Assembly: GCA_004299485.1 (NCBI GenBank)
Contig: SCQP01000001.1
Coordinates: 124,001-188,000, forward strand
DNA from: Acidobacteriota bacterium
GTDB lineage: Bacteria > Acidobacteriota > Terriglobia > Terriglobales > SCQP01
Direction of reading: 5' to 3'
Length of the DNA stretch: 64,000 nucleotides
Of the stretch, positions 27,188 to 53,784 are shown one piece after another. How positions within the stretch are numbered: position 1 is the first letter of the stretch; each line of letters starts with the position of its first letter. A program made the position numbers and the translations under genes. The notes under the pieces are model-generated. The model searched no databases. It was not told the origin of the DNA and saw only the letters and a program-made list of their open reading frames with translations.

Positions 27188-27251
27188 TTTTAAAATTGGG
27201 CTTTTAGCGCCGCGCTCACCGGTCCCCGCCGGTTGGCGAAATGCTGGGTGC

Positions 27252-27522
27252 GTGAAGAGGGTGACAGTTACCATTCCGGATGAGCTGGCGGCGGCGTTGG
27301 AACGCCACAGGAGCGCCCAGGAAAATCCGCAGGCGCTGGCGCTCCGTGGTGCAGAGCGCGCTACGGAGTTTCTTGCGGCAGTCCGGTTACTTGCGTGCGC
27401 CCGGACCGCTGCGCATCCGGCCTGCGACGCCGGACAGTGGACGCCGCGACATCGGCGAGAAGCACGATCAGTACCTGGCCGATGCATTTGGCGCTTGCCG
27501 ATACCGGGCCTCTGTGCTTTAA
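27252..27522 (+). pseudogene. Frameshifted RHH (CopG-like) antitoxin
   Basis: From GTG at 27252 the first frame reads VKRVTVTIPDELAAALERHR, the start of a ribbon-helix-helix antitoxin. Around 27340 the homology moves to another frame: VVQSALRSFLRQSGYL, then SGRRDIGEKHDQYLADAFG, as expected for this antitoxin family. A single-base indel therefore breaks the gene. Its last codons run into the inverted-repeat element, which supplies the TAA stop at 27520-27522. No PIN or other toxin follows. Confidence 0.7.
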
Positions 27523-27634
27523 AGCAGTTCCAGCCTTGGTGTAACCCGCTCCGAGGTAGAACGAGCGGCGTTCCCTGATGTCAACGCCGCAAACGCGCGG
27601 TCTGCCGGGCTATAGCTAGTCTGGAACTGCTTTA
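27520..27634. mobile_element. 115-bp nested inverted-repeat element, copy E1 (MITE-like)
   Basis: The ends are exact inverted repeats TAAAGCAGTTCCAG, extended imperfectly to about 30 bp. Inside is an 8-bp hairpin GCGGCGTT/AACGCCGC (27565-27572, 27583-27590) with loop CCCTGATGTC (reverse complement GACATCAGGG). The element at 53668-53784 is homologous along its whole length in opposite orientation. Both ends carry TA, which would suit IS630/Tc1-type TA-target insertion. It lies between convergent genes and supplies a stop codon to each: TAA at 27520-27522 (+) and TAA at 27634-27632 (-). It could act as a bidirectional terminator. Confidence 0.75.
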
Positions 27635-29308
27635 GCCGCCGGGAACCACGGGGGGCGGGGCGCCGCAGGTCGACTTCTGGGTCAGGCACGGCCATTTGAC
27701 GCCGAGCTGGTCCAGGTACGTCGGGTAACGATCCTGCCGGTAATACAGCTTTTCCATGAGCGGGCGCAGCCTCCGCATCAGCGCGTCGTGCATGGCAAGA
27801 TCCGGGGTTGCCTCCGGCGGCAAAAAGGAGCGGTACACAACCGGTCTGGGCGCGCCGTAAGCCTTCATGGCCAGAACCGGCTGCACCGCTTCAAAATAAT
27901 GCCGGGCGCTTTGCACGAGGCGCGGGTTCAGGTAAAGGTCGAGCGCGGTCATCGCCAGCACTTTGGCGTCCACGCTGGCGCCTCCGTAGGCAATCGGCGT
28001 AGCTTCGGCCAATGCCGCCTTCCAGTTGTGAAAGGGAACTTCCGGGATATTGGCCGGGAACATGAGCCGGACGGTGGGGACGGTCCACATCACATCGCCA
28101 ATATCATCCGACGGCCCGCCGAGCGGGTTGACCACGCCCGTGCCCAGCTTATCAATGTGGGTCGAGAGCCCGATAGGCGGCTTGCCAATCAGGGTTTGCA
28201 CCGCTTTGGCATAGAGCTGGTCGGCGGCGGTCCAGGCGGGCATGCCCACGGCCTGGATGTTTTTGTACATGTCTTCGGCCAGCGGCTGATTGCCCCACGA
28301 GGGCCAGGCCGTGCCGATCACGTTGACATCCACCGTGGTTCCGAACATGGCCGCCGCCGCTTTGGCCACGCGGTTGGCGGTGGCCAGGTTCTGGCGCACC
28401 ATCTCGGGCGTCACTTCGCGTAAGTAATACCAGTCCTCGGTGAGGTCCGGGACTACATTGGGCTCGTCGCCGCCGTTGACCAGAACATTCTGCGTGCGCG
28501 AGGCGGGATGGAAGAACTGCCGCATGTAGTTCATGCCGTTGTCAAACATCTCGGCGGACGCCAACGCGCTTTTGCCGTCCCAGGGATCGGCGGCCGCATG
28601 CGCGGTCTTGCCGTGAAAGGTGTACTGGACGGAAACCGCGGCCGTCCCGCCGCTGCGCCCATAGGAGGTCCCCAGACCGGAGGACACGTGGGTCGACAAG
28701 ACGGCGTCCACATGATCGAACACCCCGGCGCGGACATACCAGGCCTTGCCGGCCAGGATTTCTTCGGCAATGCCAGGCCATACCTGCACGGTGCCGGAGA
28801 TATGGTGCTGCTGCATGACCGACTGGAGCGCCAGAGCGGCAACGACCATGCCCGCCAAACCGGTGTTATGCCCCTCGGACTGACCGTTGCCGCCCACGAT
28901 CATGGGCTGCTGCTTGAGTACGCCGGGCATTTGCGACAGACCTGGCAGCCCGTCTTCGTCGTTGTTTAACGACACGGTGGGGTGCCCGCTGCCATTACTC
29001 CAACTCGCCAGCCACGCGGTCGGAATGCCTGCGATTCGCCGCTGGATGCTGAACCCGTGGCGTTGCAGGATGCCGGTGAGATAGATGCCGGTCTGGACTT
29101 CGTTATAGCCAATTTCCTGGAACGAAAAGGTGGAATCCACGATCTGCTGGATCAGTTTGGCGTGCGCATTGACGTAGCCCTGGGCTTCGGCTTTGACGCT
29201 GCCGATGTTAGGGGCTTGCGCGCCTGCCGCCGCAGACAGCAGCAGCGATGCCAGCACCAGGGCCGCCGCTCCGGAAAACAATCTGAAATTCGGTCGTTGG
29301 GCAAACAT
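27632..29308 (-). CDS. Exported M20-family amidohydrolase (AbgB-like)
   Basis: ATG at 29308 gives a signal peptide (MFAQRPNFRLFSGAAALVLA, cleavage at AGA|QA). The mature enzyme (about 530 aa) has the M20 di-metal layout seen in AbgB-like aminobenzoyl-glutamate hydrolases and aminoacylases: YNEVQTGIYLTGILQRHGF, EGHNTGLAGMVVAALALQ (metal His), GIAEEILAGKAWYVRAGVFD (catalytic Glu pair), STHVSSGLG and the dimerisation motif FHGKTAHAAADPWDGKSAL. A C-terminal extension is rich in Pro and Cys. It probably cleaves N-acyl amino acids or peptides in the periplasm. The stop codon lies in the E1 repeat. Confidence 0.9.
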   Translation of the reverse strand: MFAQRPNFRLFSGAAALVLASLLLSAAAGAQAPNIGSVKAEAQGYVNAHAKLIQQIVDSTFSFQEIGYNEVQTGIYLTGILQRHGFSIQRRIAGIPTAWLASWSNGSGHPTVSLNNDEDGLPGLSQMPGVLKQQPMIVGGNGQSEGHNTGLAGMVVAALALQSVMQQHHISGTVQVWPGIAEEILAGKAWYVRAGVFDHVDAVLSTHVSSGLGTSYGRSGGTAAVSVQYTFHGKTAHAAADPWDGKSALASAEMFDNGMNYMRQFFHPASRTQNVLVNGGDEPNVVPDLTEDWYYLREVTPEMVRQNLATANRVAKAAAAMFGTTVDVNVIGTAWPSWGNQPLAEDMYKNIQAVGMPAWTAADQLYAKAVQTLIGKPPIGLSTHIDKLGTGVVNPLGGPSDDIGDVMWTVPTVRLMFPANIPEVPFHNWKAALAEATPIAYGGASVDAKVLAMTALDLYLNPRLVQSARHYFEAVQPVLAMKAYGAPRPVVYRSFLPPEATPDLAMHDALMRRLRPLMEKLYYRQDRYPTYLDQLGVKWPCLTQKSTCGAPPPVVPGG

Positions 29309-29414
29309 ACCGGCACGATACCGCCCTTGCTGCCTCTCAGCAAGCGGAATCATTGACTGGCAGGGGGCACGCTTGCGCTGCCGCTGGGGATCCGGTGCCA
29401 CGCGGGCCGAAGAG

Positions 29415-29509
29415 GAAGTGGCCCGGCCACAGCGGACTTGCGTCCGCCCCCCGTTGCCACCCCAAGCCGCGTGCGGCTTGGGGGCACCGGCGTTGGTCGA
29501 GCTGTGGCC
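29415..29509. repeat. Palindromic intergenic repeat, family B, copy 1
   Basis: A 95-bp segment is homologous, inverted, to 53040-53134; the 57-bp core (29453-29509) differs at only four positions. It contains the near-perfect palindrome CCCCAAGCCGC-GT-GCGGCTTGGGG. The rest of the 418-bp gap 29309-29726 holds no recognised gene. Confidence 0.8.
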
Positions 29510-29726
29510 GAAATTCGCTCCCCGGCAACGCACGCCCGCTGGTGCTCAGGGCGTGTCCAACTTGCTGCGTAAAGCTGCCGGCGGGGCCTGGAAAAATCGA
29601 CTGCCTGCTTCCATAAATGGTCCAAAAATGGAATTTGCGATTCCTGATTTTTGCATGGAAGATCTGGCCTTGGCCCGGGGGCGAAGGCTGCGGTATGCTG
29701 ACGGGCGGAACGGGAGGACACAACCA

Positions 29727-53667: not shown

Positions 53668-53784
53668 TAAAGCAGTTTTAGCATCGCTGTAGCCCGTGTC
53701 AACCATACCGCATGCGGCTTTGACAACAGGAAAAGCCGCACGTACTCCGCCGGAGCAGGGTACACCGACGCTAAAACTGCTTTA
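53668..53784. mobile_element. 117-bp nested inverted-repeat element, copy E2 (MITE-like)
   Basis: The terminal inverted repeats TAAAGCAGTTTTAGC are exact over 15 bp and extend imperfectly to about 30 bp. The inner hairpin GCGGCTTT/AAAGCCGC (53714-53721, 53732-53739) has loop GACAACAGGA. Relative to E1 the outer stem changed CC/GG to TT/AA and the inner stem G-C to T-A, each change being matched on the partner strand, while the loop stayed GACAWCAGGR. It too lies between convergent genes. Confidence 0.75.

Follow-up and report, generated by a model that had tools for sequence, protein, structure and literature searches.

A probable miniature transposon of acidobacteria with a constant core, different terminal repeats and insertion on stop codons

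Two nested inverted repeats, E1 and E2, lie within a 64,000-nucleotide stretch of the genome of an uncultured acidobacterium (contig SCQP01000001.1, positions 124,001 to 188,000; hereafter, the window), and they raise the question of whether the paired changes in their stems reflect selection on a folded molecule or the workings of a mobile element. The original prediction described two copies with a fixed loop, took the paired changes as a sign of selection on a folded form, and named an IS630-type miniature inverted-repeat transposable element (MITE) as an alternative. We find that E1 and E2 are very probably copies of a lineage-restricted MITE that is moved in trans by TA-inserting transposases.

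E1 is a complete copy of 115 bp at positions 27520–27634, lying on the minus strand when the orientation of the element is set by its core, and E2 is a complete copy of 117 bp at positions 53668–53784 on the plus strand. In E1, the terminal inverted repeat (TIR) at the right end of the element (27520–27533), which starts with TAA, pairs with the TIR at its left end (27621–27634), and the inner hairpin (27565–27590, minus strand) consists of a stem formed by 27565–27572 with 27583–27590 and a 10-nt loop at 27573–27582. In E2, the left TIR (53668–53682) pairs with the right TIR (53770–53784), and the inner hairpin (53713–53740, plus strand) has a stem formed by 53713–53721 with 53732–53740 around a 10-nt loop at 53722–53731. 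As predicted, the two are end-to-end homologous nested inverted repeats in opposite orientations, and both sit between convergent genes. The outer arms are paired over 14–15 bp, with TA at both termini of each copy; end-to-end alignment confirmed that they differ between E1 and E2 by paired changes, and the inner stem and loop of the two copies are as first described. Compared with dinucleotide shuffles, the fold of E1 has a z-score of about −4.5 to −4.8 and that of E2 is stronger, at about −7; as RNA of either strand, the two range from −4.5 to −7.1.

The count of two copies was too low. The search with a covariance model that the original prediction had called for, carried out with a model of the inner core, found about 31 dispersed core-bearing copies in the 3.3-Mb genome (E < 0.01), with covariation on 29 copies. 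A pattern derived from the arms recovered the copies in this genome that have E1/E2-like arms, while the reversed control pattern gave no matches. The predicted loop, GACAWCAGGR, fits E1 and E2; across the family, the loop reads CANCARG and occurs in 10-nt and 7-nt versions. Beyond the core-bearing copies, the genome contains further debris in the form of deleted copies and solo ends: a 68-bp copy (L020) has lost the core by internal deletion, and at G000:C10:26382-26555 (L025) a complete copy directly adjoins the solo, core-less end of another, perhaps as a nested insertion. Such an internal deletion and such solo ends are expected of mobile-element debris. The family has the general features of a MITE, being short, devoid of a transposase gene, bounded by TIRs and present in many dispersed copies.

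As far as sampled, the family appears to be confined to one taxonomic family. The inner-core covariance model matched 18 places in the genus mates G001–G003 and gave three weak matches in a genome of another genus, G007. In that genome (L064, L068 and L071), a core-like hairpin lies between GCCCGAGTTCGTC arms within a larger dispersed repeat of ~290 bp; these copies were excluded from the statistics. Among 84,980 species genomes, an exact core pattern occurred in only three acidobacterial MAGs (YF1.bin113, clean14 and clean356), and among 396 genomes of the phylum, a stem pattern found, apart from the home genome, a single hairpin, which has an A/T loop and looks unrelated. No match to the element was found in phages and plasmids. 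In viral contigs, the exact core was absent, and the stem pattern gave five hairpins, all lacking the TIRs of the family. One IMG/VR viral contig (L197:580-760) has a perfect palindrome of nested form, in which other arms enclose a TGCGGCTTTT stem; it is at most a candidate relative of the family. No description of this element was found among open-licence papers that mention both acidobacteria and MITEs, so that an earlier report is possible.

The elements share a general layout consisting of a TIR of ~15 bp, a spacer, an inner inverted repeat with a short loop, a second spacer and the other TIR, with a length of 112–127 bp in this genus. The TIRs themselves are of several types. Most copies in the home genome end, as E1 and E2 do, in TARAGC followed by six variable bases and AG, whereas two (L053 and L056) end in TAGTGTCCTGAGTCAGA instead, and the ends of copies in genus mates also include TAGAACCTGTCTCATAAT, TAGAACTGGTTTCAT or TAGTGTAGTGCGTC. 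The cores of different TIR types agree at 29 of 32 bases and at 26 of 29, and their best 30-nt stretch has 27 identities, whereas shuffles reach no more than 19. Conservation of the inner stem and loop extends to their sequence and is not limited to pairing. In almost every copy measured, the core stem starts at a distance of 43–48 nt from either end; L070 has 52 nt on one side. G008, a genome of another genus, carries 13 elements (L202–L214) of 152–191 bp with TAGAACC ends; their stem, TGCGGCTTTTC/GAAAAGCCGCA, is the same, lies ~47 nt from either end and encloses a loop that is longer. In these elements with IS5-type ends, the loop varies in length and holds a further palindrome (TTGCCGGCTATGCCGGCAA).

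The autonomous partner of the TAGTGTCC TIR type is IS630: L053 and L056 have exactly the same TIR, CTAGTGTCCTGAGTCAGA, as an intact 1162-bp IS630 element in G001. The partner of the TAGAACC type is IS5, with near-identical ends: G009 and G010 contain such elements, 858 and 898 bp long, whose termini resemble TAGAACC(A/G)GTCTCA and whose two overlapping frames match IS5-family transposase. Judged by these matches, a single core goes with the ends of two transposase families that are unrelated to each other, IS630 and IS5. No transposase with ends of the TARAGC type, to which E1 and E2 belong, was found, and the home genome contained no IS630 or DDE_Tnp_1 transposases. The pattern TARAGCANNNNYAG, used for partner transposons, was too loose, with counts near those of the control outside the home genome, and a PDB search with the IS630 transposase gave no match. 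Of the IS630-type alternative, the MITE and the TA targets, which have the form YTAR, are borne out; IS630 ends are present only in the sister type of L053 and L056, which shares the TIRs of an intact IS630 element, while no partner was found for the TIR type of E1 itself.

Across 29 copies, 95.5% of the alignment cells pair, compared with 83% after shuffling, which ignores the relatedness of the copies, and at most 47% with slid partners. Double changes occur in 13 of 24 pairs, three of them in the inner stem, and the two arms differ at 1.1 of 14 bases within a copy, compared with 5.0 between copies. On a tree built from the interior only, which is small, poorly supported in places and includes the core, the six variable arm columns require 29 changes on the left, 29 on the right and 31 jointly, so that arm changes are almost always joint, although they come in blocks and hence represent fewer events than the columns suggest. 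Spacer changes on this tree are nearly independent (82 and 110, versus 167 jointly). The paired changes of the original prediction are therefore real, but the outer pairs are TIRs, for which causes other than selection on a fold suffice: matched transposase ends, or template switching, can account for covariation of the outer arms with no need for a folded RNA. The outer arms would change together because both ends must suit one transposase; alternatively, template switching may copy the sequence of one arm into the other.

The second of these causes, in which a quasi-palindrome has its two arms made to match by template switching between them and no selection acts on pairing, is a documented process known to mimic compensatory change (PMC8794818). 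Multi-base blocks (TTTT, AAAT, AACC and TTCC) that are paired at once point to it, and as the general explanation of the covariation it is possible, if somewhat doubtful: similar spacers have not been homogenised, and template switching alone cannot yield whole unrelated TIRs that match IS630 and IS5 ends. A structured RNA, either a small RNA or a 3′ UTR hairpin, selected for its fold and only secondarily mobile, would agree with the strong folds of E1 and E2, the paired changes in the arms and at three positions of the inner stem, the conserved loop and the frequent placement at the 3′ ends of genes. We nevertheless consider it unlikely, given that the copies are scattered, non-syntenic and in some cases inside genes, that unrelated terminal sequences matching transposon ends are tolerated, and that covariation is absent from the spacers separating arms and core; an Rfam search of the window at two thresholds returned tRNAs only, with no match at E1, and no promoter or terminator signature was seen near E1.

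For a MITE mobilised in trans, the constancy of the core goes beyond what transposition alone explains. Three double-changed pairs together with a conserved loop, beyond the function of a TIR, make some constraint on the core likely, and to this extent the argument of the original prediction stands. Without being a TIR, the inner hairpin is kept 43–52 nt from both ends under unrelated TIRs, which makes it the best candidate for a functional site. Since it is carried between unrelated TIRs of the TARAGC, IS630 and IS5 types, it probably serves the element itself as a cis-acting site. Neither the matching of TIRs nor template switching explains the inner stem and loop. As a tentative suggestion that may well prove wrong, we propose that the core is an independent cis-acting module that has switched between transposases, having been fitted with IS630 TIRs, IS5 TIRs and those of one or more further types. 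In a step that all these transposon types share, its conserved stem and loop would be recognised, either as RNA or by a host factor.

Nearly all copies in the home genome are flanked as Y-TA ... TA-R, and most have TA at both ends. Comparison of the E1 site with the genus mates showed only a tRNA-Leu in common, with no synteny, and no empty site was found for E1 or E2. Two other copies lie in frame within genes, one in a membrane-protein gene (L037:1469-1584) and one in a TonB-dependent receptor gene (L058:1469-1584). The L037 insert is absent from the orthologues in G001, G002, G003, G004, G007 and G009, which align at the protein level on both sides of it. The two in-frame copies encode a common 38-residue peptide (KQNQHR.GPA..TAC.FD..KSRT), and the net insertion is 114 bp, a multiple of three. 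Specialisation for in-frame insertion into proteins, as in the Rickettsia palindromic elements, could draw on this peptide and on this length but is very improbable, as only 2 of the 29 copies in the home genome are in frame and the others are intergenic or on stop codons.

Placement on stop codons is common. In 12 of the 27 copies outside genes, a flanking gene stops exactly at the terminal TAA or TAG, whereas 14.3% (21 of 147) of non-coding YTAR sites in the same loci are stop codons (binomial P = 1.5e-4; Fisher P = 8e-4; gene ends were taken from a codon-usage gene caller written for this analysis). The same placement was seen for 4 of 11 copies in the genus mates and 3 of 13 elements in G008. 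At L048, the CobO protein reaches exactly to the final position of its family models, and its native end has thus been kept. At E1, two genes end on the opposite TAAs of the element: TAA at 27632–27634 (minus strand) is the stop codon of an M20-like peptidase gene at 27632–29533, and TAA at 27520–27522 (plus strand) closes the upstream plus-strand frame, the weaker side of the two, as this gene appears frameshifted. In this upstream frame (27250–27522), the N-terminal part resembles a ribbon-helix-helix protein, and a frameshift seems to interrupt the gene.

These placements would follow from the ends and the target of the element. Transposases acting in trans would insert it at TA, nearly always within YTAR, and the insertion would duplicate the TA. 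Since the target is YTAR and each end reads TAR inward, a TAA or TAG stop at the target would be regenerated at the same codon. The element could in this way land harmlessly on stop codons, even on a stop common to two convergent genes, as at E1, where a stop codon presumably stood before the insertion.

Several known repeats resemble this family in part. RUP, a 107-bp repeat of Streptococcus pneumoniae with IS630-Spn1 as its proposed mover, is similar in its size, its TA termini and its TIRs resembling those of an IS630 element (PMC2229807), but it has one TIR type, whereas the E1 family has one core under IS630, IS5 and unassigned TIRs, with copies on stop codons. The ERIC/IRU repeats of enterobacteria, which are ~127 bp long and palindromic, have TA termini and often lie at the 3′ ends of genes, some with open frames (PMC2229807, PMC10969869), share all of these features with the E1 family but come from a different phylum, and no sequence relation was seen in this comparison, which was by description rather than by alignment. 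BOX repeats of Streptococcus pneumoniae likewise provide stop codons for genes, with 36 annotated genes having a BOX-supplied stop and no good evidence of truncation (PMC3049150); BOX is modular (boxA/B/C), whereas in the E1 family it is the TAR at the terminus that re-creates the stop within a YTAR target. Rickettsia palindromic elements are also short palindromic repeats that can sit in frame and share a peptide, but they lie mostly in frame in genes. The length and the TA/TIR structure of the E1 family do not suggest REP/BIME elements, which have hairpin units of 20–40 bp and a Y1 RAYT transposase.

Bacterial MITEs are commonly regarded as what deletion has left of a single insertion sequence. 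What is noteworthy in the E1 family is a constant core with exchanged ends, together with insertion on stop codons with TAR restored. That one core persists under ends belonging to unrelated transposases suggests that a non-autonomous element can survive its mobilising enzyme and take up another in its place. For the discovery of structured RNAs, the family calls for caution, as transposon ends can give strong covariation. The combination of a YTAR target with TAR termini may offer a simple route to a harmless transposon, one that would restore stop codons, including the common stop of convergent genes.
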